Positions 5,944-13,152 of a stretch of DNA of 64,000 nt are shown here, one piece after another (within the stretch, counting starts at the first letter, position 1; each line of letters opens with the position of its first letter). Location of the stretch: NCBI GenBank assembly GCA_008690995.1, contig VRMN01000002.1:1798001-1862000 (forward strand). Direction: 5' to 3'. The position numbers and the translations under genes were made by a program. This stretch comes from Porphyridium purpureum. Its lineage: Eukaryota; Rhodophyta; Bangiophyceae; Porphyridiales; Porphyridiaceae. The notes beneath the pieces are model-generated. The model saw only the letters and a list, made by a program, of their open reading frames with translations. It searched no databases and had not been told where the DNA came from.

Positions 5944-7068
5944 CTATACACGCCGTAGCACCCGAATGGAGGACGTGTCCTCTACTTCGGCCACAGCGTC
6001 ATCTACAAGCATCCACTTCCGATGAACTTCCGAGCGAGATAACCAATCTTCAAGCTCCTCCTCAACGGTCAAAAGAAAAGCGTCGTACACTGTAAGCTTT
6101 CTTGACGTGCTCATGAACTCTCCAATATTTCGTTCGACAGTTGCACGCACGCCAGCCACCTCCAAGAGTCCGCGGATCGCGGCGTCTTGCGCTGTCTCGC
6201 CAGACTCGAGCTCGACTTTCACCAGAGTCGGTACGCCTTTTGAGTCCTCGTTTAGAATTGTCAGAACAAACAATTCCTGACCAACACGGCGCACTGGGAC
6301 ACACAATGCCTCCTTCTTCATATCCCGCGGGCGCGCGACGTCGTTATTGAGATCGCGATATTGGCGAGGTTGGTATGCTTGAATCGCGACCGCGGCCGGA
6401 ATGGACGGTGTCCGGTGCTTGCCAAAGTCAACCTGATCATCCTCATCGTCCGAGGCACCGGCGAGCAATTCAGCAGGCACTACAACGCTGGACTGGAGTT
6501 CTTTGCGTGCGCGCTGCACGACCAGGCCAATTTTTGTGTGAAACTTTTGGTAGTTGAGCACGTTTGCTGTGTAAAGAGACTGCGTCTCTGCATCCAGTAC
6601 CTTGTCGTGTTTCTTGAGCGACTTGATCGCCGTGGTGTAATTGACGGAGCAAAACTCTTGGAACATGTCCAGATGGTCCTCCATCCGCTCGTACGTCAGC
6701 TTGACAAACGCGCCGCGAGCCTTTTGCTCCTTGAGCTTCTCGAAGAACTCTGCGGATTTTTGCTCGAAGAACGTATTTATCTTGAGCAGTTCCTCGTTGA
6801 GAATCTCGAGAAACTCGAGACTCTCCACAGTCATCTGCGAGACGAGGCTAAGCTTCCACTCCCACCCGGCATGACACGCCAGTCCCTTCATATCAAAGCG
6901 GTTATACTTGAGCTCCGTATCATCGTCAGGCAAGCCCGCGTCGACGCGCGCGCCTTTCTTCCTGTCGACTTCGCTGATCACATACTTTAACCGCTTGTAA
7001 TTGATGTAATACTGAGTCCATGCCGGCGCTTCGTTGGCAACCGCATTCAAATACTTGCCCCACTTCAT
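5944..7068 (-). CDS. SPX domain fused to a degenerate DIPP-type Nudix domain
   Basis: A 374-residue protein starting with a canonical SPX domain (about 1-185): MKWGKYL, then YYINYKRLK (Y21, K25), and a late helix with K149, K152, K153 and K156 in 'KSLKKHDK'. These positions match the inositol-pyrophosphate-binding Tyr/Lys set of known SPX domains. After an acidic linker, residues about 250-374 fit a diphosphoinositol polyphosphate phosphohydrolase-like Nudix fold, with 'LEDW' and 'RKWMLVDDA' near the end. The Nudix box (about 285-307) reads E291 ... R299-G-L-L-E303-V-A-G-V. Two of the canonical REUxEE glutamates are replaced (G300, V304), so hydrolase activity is doubtful. The protein lies head-to-head with PPK1, suggesting phosphate/polyphosphate control. 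SPX is certain; the degraded Nudix call is strong but by eye. Confidence 0.88.
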   Translation of the reverse strand: MKWGKYLNAVANEAPAWTQYYINYKRLKYVISEVDRKKGARVDAGLPDDDTELKYNRFDMKGLACHAGWEWKLSLVSQMTVESLEFLEILNEELLKINTFFEQKSAEFFEKLKEQKARGAFVKLTYERMEDHLDMFQEFCSVNYTTAIKSLKKHDKVLDAETQSLYTANVLNYQKFHTKIGLVVQRARKELQSSVVVPAELLAGASDDEDDQVDFGKHRTPSIPAAVAIQAYQPRQYRDLNNDVARPRDMKKEALCVPVRRVGQELFVLTILNEDSKGVPTLVKVELESGETAQDAAIRGLLEVAGVRATVERNIGEFMSTSRKLTVYDAFLLTVEEELEDWLSRSEVHRKWMLVDDAVAEVEDTSSIRVLRRV

Positions 7069-8311
7069 TTTCCACGGAGCCCCTTCCCTCTGTCACCCCC
7101 TCCTTTCGTCACGCTCGCACAGGGACGCACGAGCACGAAACACCTGCTCTGCTCCGGTCGAGCCTGCTCCCCTGCTCCCCCTCACTTTTCAATAAGCATT
7201 CACGTCCACACACAAACTATCACCACGCACATCCCAATGTCTTCTTCACGCCTCGATGTCCCAACAGACTCTCAGCACGCTCGCGCGATGACGACAAACC
7301 TGGTGATGATCATGGGAGAGCGCCAAGAGGTTCGAAACCGTGAGACAAGGAACTGAATCTTCGCAATGTAAGCTCGAATGGCATGCCATGTGGTGGCAAG
7401 GGCAGCGGCAGTGCCAATGCCGGTGGCACGGCGTGCCGCTCGCGCGACGTTTTCAGTGGCGCGACACGCCGCCGCCTGGCCGCCCAGGCAGAGAATGAGC
7501 TGTATTGGCGAATAGGATCGGCGATGCGCAGTGGCGGATGATACAGCCGCAGGAGAATGTGAGAACTGGCACACGACGCGGGCACGAGGAACTGCAAGTG
7601 CTGTAATGTGGGAATAGAACCGCGTTTGGGGATGCACGCGCAGACACGGCGCGAGTTGCCGGGTTGCATCTTCGTGTATGCTGACCCATCGAGCGATGTA
7701 TATTGACGTAGTGATCTCGACAGCCCAACCCGAAGAACTCTTCCCGGCTTCTCAAGCCAAAAACCCAAAAAAAAAAATAAAATGAGGAAGAGGTTCAGCA
7801 ACCACTAGATGAACAAAAGCCCAGTTGCCACCCCGCCGTTGTACGGCAGTGACTTTTCCTTCACATAGCCGCGACATGATCACGGAGGCAGACAGAAGCA
7901 GGCCGCGCGCCTGAACGGAAGCGCAAGTCCCGTCGCCCTGGATGTCTGCTCGTCATCCTAATTCCCCAATACCACACTTGCCACACCGCAGCAGCGCGTT
8001 CGCGCACGCAAAGCATTCCGTTCAATGCACTGTACCGTATCTCACCGAGCGCTGTACACCGATCTTCTAAAACCCGCCCGAAAAAGGGGGAATCTTTCCA
8101 GATTCGGCGCTATGAGAAATGGCGCTGATTTGCTATATTGTCCTCCGTCGTTCGATGCACGCTGTACACTACTGGCGGGTGCATGTGTACAGTTGGTAGC
8201 ATGGATCAGTATTGAACCGTTAAGACGAACCACCGGAATTTGGAAGGGAAAAGTTGAAGGCCAGGGGGAGGACGGGGATAACGGAGAGAGAGAGTGTGTG
8301 TGTCGGGGGAC

Positions 8312-8354
<43 letters not shown>

Positions 8355-8362
8355 GGGGGAGT
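7069..8362. promoter_or_regulatory. Shared divergent region between SPX-Nudix and PPK1
   Basis: About 1.3 kb with no supported gene; the only long minus-strand frames start at non-ATG codons or lack family resemblance. It contains CACTGTACCG at 8028-8037 (the same ten bases as at 139-148), an inverted CTGTACAC ... GTGTACAG pair at about 8165-8195, and a (GA)n run at 8314-8349 just before the PPK1 start. A candidate bidirectional control region. Confidence 0.5.
8314..8349 (+). repeat. (GA)n microsatellite in the PPK1 leader
   Basis: About 18 GA units ending 13 bp before ATG 8363. The upstream frame only extends the protein with Arg-Glu repeats, so the run is taken as leader. Confidence 0.85.
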
Positions 8363-11362
8363 ATGGGGCCGAATATTCCCGGCGGTGAGGAGGACGAGGG
8401 GATGGGTTTGGGGTCTGTGCGGATCGCGGACTCGCAGTCGGTTTGGAATCTGAGGATGGAGGGGCAGGTGCGCGGGCTGCCGCCCCGCGAGGCGCAGCTG
8501 CATAAGTACAAGGTGTGTCCGCTGGACGCCACCACGCATTACGCGCCGGAAGTCGAGTACGAGCATATGAGTAATATGGAGCTGGCGAAGAGTAAGCTCA
8601 TCTTCACCCAGGAGTTTGGCGAGCTGAGCTTCAACCAGCGCGTGCTGGCCGCCGCGCTCGATCAGGACACGCCGCTGCTCGAGCGGTTCAAGTTCTGCTG
8701 CATCGTGTCTTCCAATCTCGATGAGCACTTTGCCAAGCGATTGGGGAATATTCCAAAGGTGCAGGCCGACGAGGACGACGCGCCGGACACGTCCAAAATG
8801 AAGGCGTCCATTCGGCCGCGGACCGAGTTTGAGGAAAAGTTTAGCGAGGCGGTGACAAGCATTGTGAACATTCAGTACAAGTGCCTCATGCGTGATATTC
8901 TCCCCAAGTTGCAGGAACACGGCGTAAAAATTCTGCGGTACCGCGACTTGGACGACACGCAAAAGGCCGACATGGACGAATACTTTCGCAAGAAACTGTA
9001 CCCTATGATCACGCCCTTATCCGTGGACCAGACGCACCCTTTCCCAATGATCCAGTCGCACGGGATTTACCTCGTGATTGTCGTGCTGAATCCAGAAACG
9101 TCGCGCACGCGCAGGCTCTACTTCCGCATTCCGAATGTGAAACCGCGCGTGCTGCCAGTCGGATCTGATCGGCTGTGCTACCTGCCCATCGAGGAAATCT
9201 GCATCGCCAATGTGGACAAGATCTGCGAAGGCATGGAGCTGCTCAAGGCGTATCCGTTCCGCGTGACGCGTAACGTGAAGCTCGTTATTGACGACACCTT
9301 GTTTGGAGAGTCTGACAATCTGCTGGACTTTGTATGGGAAGAGGTCCACCGACGACGTTCGGCTCCGGCGACGCGCTTGGAAATCACTAAGCAGATGCCT
9401 GCCGACATTCGCAGCCTGCTTGTGCGCGAGCTCTACCTGGATGATACGGACGTGTACACAATCCCAAACAATTTGCTGGGCCTGGCCGACTTTTTCCCGG
9501 TTTCCTTTTCGCCTGTTGCGGAATTGCAGTACCCGCCGCACGTGCCCATGGTGCCGAAGCGTTTGGTCGGGCTCGAGGAGCGTCTGCATGAAGATCCGGG
9601 CAAGATTTTCTCCGTAATCCGCAAAGAAGACCTTCTGGTGGACTATCCGACCATGTCTTTTAACGAGTCGTCGTTGCTCTTTCTGCGCGCTGCCGCGCGC
9701 TGCCCCAAGGTGCGCATGATCAAGTGTGTTCTGTACCGTGGTGGCTCGGACTCACCGCTGGTGGCCAGTCTCATCCGCGCCGCGAAGAACGGAAAGGAGG
9801 TCAGCGTTCTGGTAGAGCTCAAGGCTTCCTTTGACGAGGTGCAGAATTCGACTTATGCCAAGCAGCTCATGGACGCCGGCTGCAATGTATCGTACGGTCT
9901 GGTGGGGCTCAAGACGCATTCAAAAATCATGCTCATCGTGCGCCAGGAGGAGAATGGCTTTCGGCAGTACTGCCAGATCGCCACGGGTAACTTCAATCCG
10001 TCCACGGCGAAAATTTATACCGACTTGGCACTGTTCACGTGTCGCGAGGACATTTGCGCGGATGTGCTTGACCTCTTCAACGCTTTGACGGGATTCAGCC
10101 GCAAGCGGCAGTATCGCCGCCTCCTGGTCGCGCCGGTGAACATGCTCGACTCTTTCATTGAATTGATCGATAACGAAGCCGAGAATGCCCGCAAGGGGCT
10201 ACCCGCGCGGATCATTCTGCAGATCAATGGGCTCACTGAAACTGAGTGCGTGTCACACCTTTATGCAGCCTCGCAGGCTGGCGTGCAGATCGATTTGATC
10301 TGCCGTGGGCTGTGCGCGATTCGACCGGGCCTACCGGGCAAATCGGACAACATTCGGGTCTTTTCGTGGATCGGGCGCTTCCTGCAGCACCGGCGAATCT
10401 TTTACTTTTTAAATGGCGGTCGCGAGAAGTATTTCATCGGGTCGGCTGATTGGCGCAACCGCAACCTTACGGCGCGCGTGGAAGTTATCACGCCCATCGA
10501 TGACGCCAAGATTCAGCGGAAGCTCATGAAGATGATGACGTTCTTTTTGGAGGATGAGTTGAACACGTGGGAAATGGCCAGTGATGGCAAGTATTACCTA
10601 CGCAAGCCCGAGACGATCGACCGCGAATCCGAGGCTTCTTTGATCGGCAAGGCGGGCACCTTGACGGCGCAGGTTCTGATGATCGACAAGGACGAGCAAA
10701 TCGCCAAGTCAGAGGATGTTGCGAACCCGGTTCGAAACACGGGCTGGACCAAGGAATGGACGGTGCAAATCAAGGGTGTGGACATATTTGTTTCGGATAT
10801 CGCTTACGGATGCGTGCCGATTCGCTTTGTAGATGAGCACAAGGTTGACCCAGAGCTTTTGCTTGTTTCGAGCAGCAAGGGAAGCGAGGACTGGTCCTTC
10901 ATGTCAGCGGATGGGAAGGAAAGCGAGACACCCGTAGACGTTTCAAAGCGATGCGCAGCGCAGCGCGGCGGCGTCAAGGGAGGAATCATCGGCAACCTGG
11001 GCTGGTTTCTCAGGGGCAAGGACAGCAAGAAGGCGGTGCAACTGTTTGTGATGGATGCCGAGTCAGAACTCGATATCGAGTGGCCAGAGCAATACGTTCG
11101 TGACCGAAAATGGATCCACCTCAGTGACGCGCAAGTCATGGACGAGCTCTCGTCTGACCCGCTGGTCGAGAGCGTGCTTTCAGCGCTTGACGATTGGGTG
11201 AAGTCGCATGCGAATGCGACGAGTCAGAACGGCGCGGTACCCGTCCCACTAATGGAAGAAGCTGCCCCACCAGTGGAAGAACCCATCGCACCAATGGAAG
11301 AACCCATCGCACCAACGGAAGAACCCATCGCACCAATGGAAGAACCCGTCGCGGAGGAGTAA
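8363..11362 (+). CDS. ppk1: Polyphosphate kinase 1 with C-terminal degenerate Nudix domain
   Basis: A 999-residue protein. Residues about 60-760 are a complete bacterial-type PPK1: 'ELSFNQRVLAAALD' and 'VSSNLDEHFAKRLG' in the N domain, 'VLVELKASFDE' and 'GLKTHSKIMLIV' (H519, the phosphorylated His), 'TGNFNPSTAKIYTD', then 'RFLQHRRIFYF' (H676, second catalytic His) and 'SADWRNRNL'. PPK1 makes polyphosphate reversibly from ATP. Residues about 800-955 add a domain absent from bacterial PPK1. 'LLLVSSSKGSEDWSF' and 'DRKWIHLSDA' match diphosphoinositol polyphosphate phosphohydrolases, but the Nudix box (E855 ... R863-C-A-A-Q-R-G-G-V) lacks all three metal-binding glutamates of REUxEE (now C864, Q867, R868). 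The tail has four EEPIAPM-like repeats. It converges with the permease gene, 68 bp between stops. Confidence 0.93.
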   Translation: MGPNIPGGEEDEGMGLGSVRIADSQSVWNLRMEGQVRGLPPREAQLHKYKVCPLDATTHYAPEVEYEHMSNMELAKSKLIFTQEFGELSFNQRVLAAALDQDTPLLERFKFCCIVSSNLDEHFAKRLGNIPKVQADEDDAPDTSKMKASIRPRTEFEEKFSEAVTSIVNIQYKCLMRDILPKLQEHGVKILRYRDLDDTQKADMDEYFRKKLYPMITPLSVDQTHPFPMIQSHGIYLVIVVLNPETSRTRRLYFRIPNVKPRVLPVGSDRLCYLPIEEICIANVDKICEGMELLKAYPFRVTRNVKLVIDDTLFGESDNLLDFVWEEVHRRRSAPATRLEITKQMPADIRSLLVRELYLDDTDVYTIPNNLLGLADFFPVSFSPVAELQYPPHVPMVPKRLVGLEERLHEDPGKIFSVIRKEDLLVDYPTMSFNESSLLFLRAAARCPKVRMIKCVLYRGGSDSPLVASLIRAAKNGKEVSVLVELKASFDEVQNSTYAKQLMDAGCNVSYGLVGLKTHSKIMLIVRQEENGFRQYCQIATGNFNPSTAKIYTDLALFTCREDICADVLDLFNALTGFSRKRQYRRLLVAPVNMLDSFIELIDNEAENARKGLPARIILQINGLTETECVSHLYAASQAGVQIDLICRGLCAIRPGLPGKSDNIRVFSWIGRFLQHRRIFYFLNGGREKYFIGSADWRNRNLTARVEVITPIDDAKIQRKLMKMMTFFLEDELNTWEMASDGKYYLRKPETIDRESEASLIGKAGTLTAQVLMIDKDEQIAKSEDVANPVRNTGWTKEWTVQIKGVDIFVSDIAYGCVPIRFVDEHKVDPELLLVSSSKGSEDWSFMSADGKESETPVDVSKRCAAQRGGVKGGIIGNLGWFLRGKDSKKAVQLFVMDAESELDIEWPEQYVRDRKWIHLSDAQVMDELSSDPLVESVLSALDDWVKSHANATSQNGAVPVPLMEEAAPPVEEPIAPMEEPIAPTEEPIAPMEEPVAEE
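11270..11352 (+). repeat. 21-bp tandem repeat encoding EEPIAPM units
   Basis: About four 21-bp units at the end of the PPK1 coding region, encoding a Pro/Glu-rich tail. Frame is kept because the unit is a multiple of three. Confidence 0.75.
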
Positions 11363-11430: not shown

Positions 11431-12972
11431 TCAGAAAATTCGATGCCAGATGTCGTTAGCCATAATGGATACCGCAACAGCAATCATAAAGGCCAGCGTG
11501 AATTCCCCGCCCGGCACAAGCTCGGGCATCGTTCCTGGGTTACCGACCAAGCTAAGCGAGGCTTCTTCTGCCTCTTCTCGTTTGCGCTGGCGGCGCAGCT
11601 TGCCAACCATGGTCGCAGGTATGATACCAAACAAGACGGTCATTCCAAATGTTCCGGTAAGGTCAATGGCAGAGAAGAACAGATTGGGCGATGTGATTGC
11701 AAAGCCCATCGCGGGAAGCAGTACGGAAAACTGAACCGGCCGAGAAGACAACGCGCTGCGTATCGTTTCGTTTGCGACATTGTTTGATATGTCCTCCAAA
11801 AACTCCGCGATCCCGAATACAAAGCCGATAAAAGAGGTCACTATCGCGATCTCACTAAAAACGGACACCGCTATCCCAACCTGGTCGCCGCTTTTTCGTA
11901 GCAGGGCGAGAGGGTCCAATGTCTCGCCGGAGACCAGGAACTGACTCAAGAAATCTGGAGAGACTGTGCCCAAAATGACTGCATTCCAGACAATAAACAT
12001 GCTCAGGGGCAAAAGCGTACCAAGCACGATCGCGTATCGGACCTTGACCACGTCTCCTTTTAGCTGCGCGCAGATGACCGGTACAATTTGGTGATATACC
12101 AGTGCCACAAGAATCGTGGGCAGTGCTGGGATAACCGCGGCCCAGTTTGTCCCGGCCAAGTAATCCGGATGCACGCCCGGAGACACCAGCGAAACGAGCG
12201 CGATGAACGTCGCCACCAAAACTCCGACGAGGATATTGTTTGTGCTCTCGACTAAGTCTTGATTTGCCACGTATAGGAAACCACCAACGCCAAGCGTGAA
12301 TGCACTTGCGCCTTGCCAGTACGGCGCATGCACGCCCTCTGCCAAGATGCCTCCAGCCTGAGCAATGTACGCGATAAGCAACGCTAACATGATGAACAGG
12401 TAAAACGCGGAGGATATTTTACCACCAATGGAACCCAGAAACAGATCTGTCATGGATAACATGGACACAGATGGCCTCTCGTACTTGCGCATGGTATACA
12501 GGGAAGCCTCCGCGACGAGCAACGCAGCACATGTCATATACATCCAACCTCCAATTAGAGCCGCCGTACTGGGTACAAACCCGGCTCTCCAAGTCACGCT
12601 TGGAAGCGCCAAAACTCCAGCGCCTATCATCGTGCCAGCCACTAGCGAAATCGCCGCAACCAGAGAGGGCTCTGCTTCGGCCTCATCCACCGCAGGTTCA
12701 TCACCTTCAGCGAGGGGCTCACCGTTTTCCGCTGAAACCTTTTCCAGTATCCGCTCCTCCTTCTTATCTTCAATACGCCCACTATTCTTGGGAGCTGCCT
12801 GCCGGACCAGCAGCGACGAGGAGCGTTGTCTCGTACGACGCACTGGGAGCGTGGAAGCCGATTCCACTCCGCGTGGTCGACCACGATACCAACATGTGGC
12901 TCGGTTTGTCAGCCGCCAGGACAGACCGTCAATCAGGCACGTCGGGGCTGTATCCACAATCTGAAACGCCAT
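11431..12972 (-). CDS. Aromatic amino acid (Trp/Tyr) permease family transporter
   Basis: A 513-residue protein with about eleven hydrophobic helices. It opens with an N-terminal extension of about 120 residues rich in Arg and Ser (starting MAFQIVDTAP), then an acidic stretch, then 'GTMIGAGVLALPSVTWRAGF', the unwound first-helix motif of the HAAAP/APC-type tyrosine-tryptophan permeases. 'LVYHQIVPVICAQLKGD' is a further family hallmark. Such carriers move aromatic amino acids with protons; the leader suggests plastid envelope placement (inferred). ATG 12972 is chosen because it opens a transit-like sequence with Phe at position 3; an earlier in-frame start is less likely. AACTGTAC lies about 140 bp upstream. 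Confidence 0.85.
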   Translation of the reverse strand: MAFQIVDTAPTCLIDGLSWRLTNRATCWYRGRPRGVESASTLPVRRTRQRSSSLLVRQAAPKNSGRIEDKKEERILEKVSAENGEPLAEGDEPAVDEAEAEPSLVAAISLVAGTMIGAGVLALPSVTWRAGFVPSTAALIGGWMYMTCAALLVAEASLYTMRKYERPSVSMLSMTDLFLGSIGGKISSAFYLFIMLALLIAYIAQAGGILAEGVHAPYWQGASAFTLGVGGFLYVANQDLVESTNNILVGVLVATFIALVSLVSPGVHPDYLAGTNWAAVIPALPTILVALVYHQIVPVICAQLKGDVVKVRYAIVLGTLLPLSMFIVWNAVILGTVSPDFLSQFLVSGETLDPLALLRKSGDQVGIAVSVFSEIAIVTSFIGFVFGIAEFLEDISNNVANETIRSALSSRPVQFSVLLPAMGFAITSPNLFFSAIDLTGTFGMTVLFGIIPATMVGKLRRQRKREEAEEASLSLVGNPGTMPELVPGGEFTLAFMIAVAVSIMANDIWHRIF

Positions 12973-13152
12973 GTCGTCACGGACAAGATAAGGGCTTGAC
13001 GCACCATTCGTCTTCGACGTTGCTTGCCGCCGCGCGCCTTCCACCTTCCCAAGTGCGGCTGTCCCCCCCTGTTTGTCGCGCAATCTCGTGCACAGAACAA
13101 TTTCGAATTTTTAACTGTACTTCTTCGTTCGCCTACTTTTTGGAGCAGGACG

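Follow-up and report, generated by a model that had tools for sequence, protein, structure and literature searches.

Two degenerate DIPP-type Nudix domains at the C-termini of divergent SPX and PPK1 genes in a Porphyridium-like red alga

The VTC complex of yeast is an SPX-regulated polyphosphate (polyP) polymerase. In the red alga Cyanidioschyzon merolae, a PPK1 fused to a Nudix hydrolase and the accumulation of polyP are reportedly the subject of a study by Yagisawa et al. in 2025, to judge by its title. The C. merolae paper is cited in a review that names red algae among the VTC-less lineages, describes most PPK homologues of eukaryotic genomes as fusions with a DIPP-type Nudix domain, and states that there is as yet no consensus about the polyP polymerases of microalgae (PMC12526157). 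PPK1 was reported in Porphyra yezoensis and C. merolae in a paper whose main text lacks the word Nudix (PMC3680246). The PPK1–Nudix fusion is an already known kind of protein. In TRPM2, a dead Nudix domain acts as the sensor of ADP-ribose (PMC4974056, excerpt), and nonenzymatic Nudix proteins are listed in PMC5389931 (excerpt).

The genome that carries the locus described here comprises 22.16 Mb in 46 contigs; the window, that is, the whole 64-kb stretch of DNA analysed, is C1:1798001–1862000. As in C. merolae, by the title of that study, a red alga has PPK1 joined to Nudix, but the PPK1–Nudix gene of the present locus is head to head with an SPX–Nudix gene. The likeness to yeast VTC would be the coupling of SPX/inositol pyrophosphate (PP-InsP) sensing to polyP synthesis (PMC12526157, excerpt). 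In VTC, however, SPX is on the polymerase, whereas here SPX sits on a protein apart from PPK1, the candidate polymerase, and no VTC match was found in the genome. DIPP and DDP1 are the closest solved relatives of both C-termini, which keep several phosphate-anchor positions (PMC8064635, excerpt); unlike in those enzymes, the Mg-binding glutamates are lost here and the domains are fused to SPX or PPK1. TRPM2 NUDT9-H is likewise a dead Nudix domain fused to another module and acts as a ligand-binding sensor (PMC4974056, excerpt). It differs in Nudix subfamily and ligand, and the sensor role in the present proteins is one that we infer from sequence.

In a preliminary description of this DNA, the two genes were placed head to head across 1.3 kb. 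The coordinates and the order stand: the SPX–Nudix frame (374 aa, minus strand) runs from 7068 to 5944 and the PPK1–Nudix frame (999 aa, plus strand) from 8363 to 11362, with 1,294 bp from ATG to ATG. For PPK1–Nudix, translation was taken to begin with ATG 8363, whereas a mechanical listing of ORFs has it begin at a GTG, 8294. The genes and their domains are as follows.

5944–7068, minus strand: SPX–pseudo-Nudix gene, one uninterrupted frame, 374 aa (ORF, Pfam SPX, homologues)
6499–7068, minus strand: SPX domain, residues 1–190 (Pfam and homologue alignment)
5947–6321, minus strand: DIPP-type pseudo-Nudix domain of SPX–Nudix, residues 250–374 (DIPP1 PDB match, tree)
6151–6219, minus strand: degenerate Nudix box KVELESGETAQDAAIRGLLEVAG of SPX–Nudix, with G at DIPP1 E66 and V at E70
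8363–11362, plus strand: PPK1–pseudo-Nudix gene, one uninterrupted frame, 999 aa (ORF, Pfam, NCBIfam, PDB match)
8585–10597, plus strand: PPK1 core, residues 75–745 (PDB match, alignment)
10730–11152, plus strand: DIPP-type pseudo-Nudix domain of PPK1, residues 790–930 (PDB match, alignment, tree)
10910–10975, plus strand: degenerate Nudix box DGKESETPVDVSKRCAAQRGGV of PPK1–Nudix, with C, Q and R at the three catalytic Glu positions

The SPX–Nudix protein scored 44.7 bits against Pfam SPX (cut-off 27.8), which places it in that family, and 20.7 bits against Pfam NUDIX, slightly below the cut-off of 21.1. Its residues 250–361 matched human DIPP1/2/3 among PDB sequences (best E 4.5e-8, DIPP1). 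A search of 5.8 billion proteins, in which shared 5-residue words are needed for a match, returned six SPX–Nudix proteins at E ≤ 1e-3, the query included. The named sources were Compsopogon caeruleus and Porphyridium aerugineum (taxid 2792); the P. aerugineum protein is the nearest named homologue, with 49% identity in the alignment. Three of the five homologues share the start MKWGKYLNAV, and all end within ±3 residues of each other except the shorter-ended P0003. The lysine cluster K149/K152/K153/K156 of the SPX domain is unchanged in all six rows, the window protein among them, and YxxYK of helix alpha1 is present in the four of six rows that have an N-terminus. We take the Lys of helix alpha4 and the Tyr/Lys of helix alpha1 to be the PP-InsP-binding basic cluster of SPX domains. 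The SPX domain of SPX–Nudix is expected to bind PP-InsPs. No SPX–Nudix protein was found in the literature searched, either by the term 'SPX-Nudix' or among the titles and abstract starts listed, and the SPX–pseudo-Nudix family is apparently undescribed there so far.

All four Pfam PPK domains are present in the PPK1–Nudix protein. The NCBIfam poly_P_kin score was 652.6 bits against a cut-off of 465.85, and the cut-off of PRK05443.2-2 was also exceeded. H519 and H676, presumably the catalytic-type histidines, are kept in 38/38 aligned rows. Pfam NUDIX had no match in this protein, and its last 250 residues carry no Pfam name; residues 828–924 matched human DIPP1/2/3 among PDB sequences (E 3.6e-4 to 4.8e-3). 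A DIPP-type Nudix domain had been proposed for both C-termini, and the PDB matches of both confirm it. When the C-terminal region of PPK1 was used alone as the query in a protein search via shared 5-residue words, only the region itself was recovered at E ≤ 0.01; the Nudix domain of the window PPK1 is thus far diverged. Searches with the whole PPK1 gave 4,922 matches, and PPK1–Nudix fusions account for 31 among the best 120, the window protein included. Precomputed PF00293 identified 25 of these, and motif or alignment the other six (P0007, P0008, P0009, P0015, P0034, and P0036). The 87 other PPK1 matches of the 120 listed have no PF00293 annotation. By the family profile, P0038 has no Nudix domain, its sequence ending within the PPK core. 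The red algae Gracilaria domingensis and Agarophyton chilense are the named sources of two of the 31 fusions; judged by similarity, the remaining ones are presumably red algal as well. There is a hint of a Chloroflexota-like origin (donor) of PPK1. The nearest named non-algal PPK1s among the listed matches (P0053, P0057, and P0064) are from Caldilineaceae and other Chloroflexota.

To compare the catalytic positions, human DIPP1 and two intact-box DIPP-like proteins of the same genome were aligned with the 31 PPK1–Nudix and six SPX–Nudix domains. At E66/E69/E70 of DIPP1, the six SPX–Nudix proteins have GEV, VEA, GEQ, ADV, GDT, and KEV. The PPK1–Nudix proteins have IEK, VEK, or IDK in 27 cases of 31, and CQR (window protein), HVN (P0008), EKE (P0009), and QED (P0010) in the other four. 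Both E66 and E70 have been replaced in all six SPX–Nudix domains and in 29/31 PPK1–Nudix domains. For PPK1–Nudix alone, E66 is absent from 30/31 and an acid at 70 from 29/31; pooled over both families, the figures are 36/37 and 35/37, and at least one catalytic Glu is missing in 37/37. The intact GX5EX7REUXEEXGU box was found in 0/6 SPX–Nudix and 0/31 PPK1–Nudix domains; in P0009, E66 and E70 are retained, and position 69 is K. The two families have in common that R65 and mostly an acid at 69 are retained while 66 and 70 are lost. The pattern R-I/V-x-x-E/D-K is shared by 27 fusions, and P0007 and P0008 deviate from it, having none of the three catalytic Glu. In the same genome, RExxEE is present in the box of 15 of the 21 Pfam-detected Nudix stretches (a plain text scan counts 16/21, one of which, L038, falls off the box).

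Some of the phosphate-anchor positions survive. At the PKGG lysine, which we equate with DDP1 Lys63 from the motif and the sequence, K is found in 6/6 SPX–Nudix and 27/31 PPK1–Nudix domains, and the DIPP1 K18 position is K in 5/6 and 27/31. R is found at the DIPP1 R115 position in 0/6 SPX–Nudix and 30/31 PPK1–Nudix domains, and at the R20 position in 0/6 and 0/31. SPX–Nudix lacks R115 and R20; therefore, its pocket may not hold PP-InsPs. In DDP1, Glu80 (= DIPP1 Glu66) and Glu84 hold Mg ions, and the Glu80 and Glu83 mutants are inactive or almost so (PMC8064635, excerpt). Glu84 was equated with DIPP1 E70 by offset. In crystals of the E80Q mutant of DDP1, 1-InsP7 was present in a nonproductive pose (PMC8064635, excerpt). 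Both Nudix domains of the locus look catalytically dead. Lost hydrolysis with retained ligand binding is plausible, given that the DDP1 mutants have little or no activity and that E80Q still gave crystals with 1-InsP7. That both families have lost the Mg-binding glutamates is new relative to the preliminary description and appears to be undescribed in the literature searched. The annotation 'Nudix hydrolase' may be wrong for most of the fusions examined.

Our best explanation of the whole, to which we give a probability of roughly 0.46, has three parts. PPK1–Nudix, a bacterial-type PPK1 with a non-hydrolysing DIPP-like Nudix domain, is probably a main polyP synthase. SPX–Nudix would be a separate protein in which a PP-InsP-binding SPX domain is joined to a second non-catalytic DIPP-like domain, and it would report phosphate status to the polyP pathway served by PPK1. 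The dead DIPP domains of both proteins would still bind DIPP ligands (PP-InsPs and/or polyP) to some degree and, by analogy with TRPM2, would serve as sensors or anchors and not as enzymes. We infer the lack of hydrolysis, the ligand binding, the regulation of PPK1, and the membership in one pathway; the domain content, the loss of catalytic residues, the conservation of the SPX–Nudix pseudo-domain, and the head-to-head position are observed. The explanation bears on how PPK1-using, VTC-less eukaryotes regulate polyP synthesis. SPX proteins with a conserved dead DIPP domain, together with a dead DIPP domain on the synthase, offer a testable candidate for a pseudo-Nudix domain as a PP-InsP/polyP receptor.

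The genome was surveyed for the genes such a pathway would use. It has one PP_kinase_C locus, that of PPK1, and 0 matches to the VTC catalytic domain PF09359 in a six-frame, exon-wise search. Three PPK2-family loci were found (C43:3191060-3191701, C24:108545-109192, and C13:951868-952491; E 1.3e-53 to 3.0e-40); therefore, polyP kinases other than PPK1–Nudix are possible, and its candidacy as the sole polyP synthase was rejected. One PPIP5K match and two IPK-family matches, either of which may be an IP6K, are candidate PP-InsP kinases. The two intact-box Nudix ORFs resemble DIPPs, one of them with a DIPP1 match of E 1.4e-15. The alga thus seems to have what PP-InsP metabolism requires. The preliminary description had suggested that the pair senses phosphate status through PP-InsPs and sets polyP synthesis. 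The domain identities, the DIPP affinity of both Nudix domains, the lysine cluster, the single PPK1, the lack of a VTC match, and the PPIP5K/IPK matches are in its favour, and the three PPK2-family loci weaken it.

It is quite possible, at somewhat less than even odds, that the two genes are unlinked partners, both fusions being old and independent and the head-to-head position an accident without functional meaning. The fusions occur separately in other algae (PPK1–Nudix 31 among the 120 listed; SPX–Nudix six, self included), and divergent order is common, being found in 6 of the 21 neighbouring ORF pairs in the window. A gene number of ~7,600 was estimated by scaling up to the genome from the 64 kb, which hold 22 ORFs with a length of 250 aa or more. 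At this number, the probability that a named gene pair lies head to head by chance is ~7e-5. Against an accident stands the expectation of only ~0.003 head-to-head pairs for the 45 pairs among 10 phosphate/polyP/PP-InsP genes, a set picked post hoc that excludes the three PPK2 loci, found later. Both figures agree with the earlier judgement that the coincidence is unlikely by chance. The linkage of SPX–Nudix and PPK1–Nudix is suggestive but was observed in a single genome.

The region between the genes also bears on their independence, and its features are as follows.

7069–8362, no strand: divergent intergenic region, 1,294 bp
8028–8037, plus strand: CACTGTACCG
8162–8192, no strand: inverted pair CTGTACAC-15 nt-GTGTACAG
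8284–8350, plus strand: GA/GT-rich low-complexity stretch, immediately 5' of the PPK1 ATG

CTGTACAC is found at 8052 and 8162 and GTGTACAG at 8185. A plain scan of the intergenic region (7069–8362) found no PHR1-type GNATATNC site. CTGTACAC occurs five times in the window against 1.0 expected, and 0/100 shuffles reach five. For the 22 ORFs, CTGTAC has nine sites upstream (1.02 per kb) versus 12 sites inside (0.33 per kb), and three of the nine upstream sites belong to PPK1. All intergenic CTGTAC motifs lie at most 340 bp from the PPK1 ATG and at least 960 bp from the SPX–Nudix ATG. Genome-wide, CTGTACAC-N6..30-GTGTACAG occurs at 29 places, three of which look like copies of others listed, versus 0 for the reversed control pattern. 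The 15-mer CACTGTACACTACTG occurs at 13 places in the genome (control 0). The inverted CTGTACAC…GTGTACAG pairs often extend to CTGTACACTACT. For 25 inverted pairs (24 stretches), the position was between divergent ORFs in 13; another 10 fell within an ORF, not necessarily a gene, that reaches 150 aa or more.

The proteins flanking the pairs were scanned with Pfam (20 proteins from 25 ORFs of at least 250 aa, with the start within 600 bp of a pair). RRM, SAP/FHA, peptidase, lipase, DNA polymerase subunit, glycine cleavage T, and other domains were found, and one protein had a weak triose-phosphate-transporter match. SPX, PPK, and PP-InsP-kinase had no Pfam match in these 20 proteins, three of which were without any match. 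With 29 places in the genome and unrelated genes beside those examined, the inverted pair was rejected as a regulatory motif specific to SPX–Nudix/PPK1. We regard it as most likely a general promoter element and as a candidate core element of (bidirectional) promoters in the Porphyridium-like alga. The motifs quoted in the preliminary description are present at 8028, 8052, 8162, and 8185; a shared, dedicated promoter is not supported, since all lie on the PPK1 side and the pair is genome-wide. A generic promoter motif is what unlinked partners would have.

The two pseudo-domains differ in conservation. Among the four full-length SPX–Nudix proteins, identity is 58–68% in the pseudo-Nudix domain versus 43–59% in SPX, and Nudix is the higher in 6/6 pairs. 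This conservation argues that the pseudo-domain of SPX–Nudix does something, and it fits a non-catalytic receptor; the comparison with SPX is not a demanding one, SPX domains being generally divergent. In PPK1–Nudix, four pairs among P0012, P0023, P0034, and P0040 have 49–58% identity in Nudix versus 54–67% in the PPK core, so that Nudix is almost as well conserved there. The window PPK1 and its nearest relative, P0008, are 45% identical in Nudix and 81% in the core. The corresponding values are 27% and 65% for the window PPK1 against P0009, 24% and 66% against P0010, and 39% and 81% for P0009 against P0010. The PPK1 Nudix domain seems to be under relaxed constraint in the Porphyridium-like group (P0007–P0010), which speaks against tight pairing of the two Nudix domains. 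This is the main result against the module proposed in the preliminary description.

A somewhat unlikely alternative is that, in the Porphyridium-like group, the Nudix domain of PPK1 is a remnant in decay and that SPX–Nudix took over sensing. It would account for an identity far below that of the core in P0007–P0010 and for a pseudo-domain of SPX–Nudix that is better kept than SPX. P0007 and P0008, without any of the three catalytic Glu, are off the pattern of the 27 other fusions, and P0011, a PPK1 that aligns to 71% of the query with 62% identity, has no Nudix domain detectable by the family profile at E <= 10. The PPK1 Nudix domain nonetheless retains an open frame and a sequence match to DIPP, which fits decay poorly.

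The preliminary description had left open whether the two Nudix domains are sister copies. That they derive from one ancestral gene split or duplicated at the locus is improbable. The profile–profile scores were 108 for SPX–PPK, slightly above the 100 for SPX–DIPP, but that for PPK–DIPP was higher still (124). The shared box, with R65 and mostly an acid at 69 kept and 66 and 70 lost in both families, would suit a common origin. A Nudix tree was built from 48 of 57 rows; nine divergent Nudix sequences of the same genome were dropped, and the PPK rows P0019, P0032, and P0035 were absent. SPX–Nudix and PPK1–Nudix share a branch of support 97/95 with human DIPP1/2 and the two DIPP-like genes of the same genome. 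SPX–Nudix (100/98) and PPK1–Nudix (85/91) each form a clade, and several rows are long branches. In the free tree, SPX, PPK, and DIPP form a three-way split in which SPX and PPK are not joined; forcing SPX and PPK together was only 0.05 log-likelihood units worse (p-AU 0.44), so a single clade was not rejected. When the Nudix domain of SPX–Nudix was searched against the genome at E <= 0.1, three matches were obtained: itself, an intact DIPP-like gene (E 2e-5), and, less well, PPK1–Nudix (E 2e-3).

A bolder form of our best explanation can be stated, although we regard it as a long shot. VTC-less red algae would have rebuilt SPX-gated polyP synthesis from a bacterial-type PPK1. The SPX–pseudo-DIPP protein would read PP-InsPs and switch PPK1 on and off via the paired dead DIPP domains, which would engage each other or the growing polyP chain, and the locus would be a fossil or working form of a split VTC analogue.

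That both proteins are working DIPP hydrolases degrading PP-InsPs or polyP beside the synthase is hardly credible: the DIPP affinity by sequence and tree and the title 'Nudix hydrolase' of the C. merolae fusion favour it, but every one of the 37 domains lacks a catalytic Glu, 36 lack E66, whose DDP1 equivalent is required for activity, and RExxEE boxes persist in most Nudix stretches of the same genome.

Four SPX loci are present in the genome. Two SPX proteins lie tail to tail, ~120 bp apart, at L040:833-2311 (plus) and L040:2433-4250 (minus), that is, C11:412632-416049. Pfam found nothing beyond SPX in these two proteins, and a PDB search with one C-terminus gave no significant match; a cupin/dioxygenase-like nature of their C-termini, a likeness seen by eye, was rejected with no backing from Pfam or PDB. 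At L009:1252-4005 (plus, C22), SPX is followed by a citrate/sulphate transporter domain (CitMHS, Na_sulph_symp). The SPX and CitMHS-type layout resembles that of yeast low-affinity phosphate transporters. At the C-terminus of PPK1–Nudix (window 11252-11359, plus), there is an acidic tandem repeat of the EEPIAPM type in about four imperfect copies. The convergent neighbour of PPK1 (11431-13083, minus) encodes a tryptophan/tyrosine permease family protein (E 7.7e-66).
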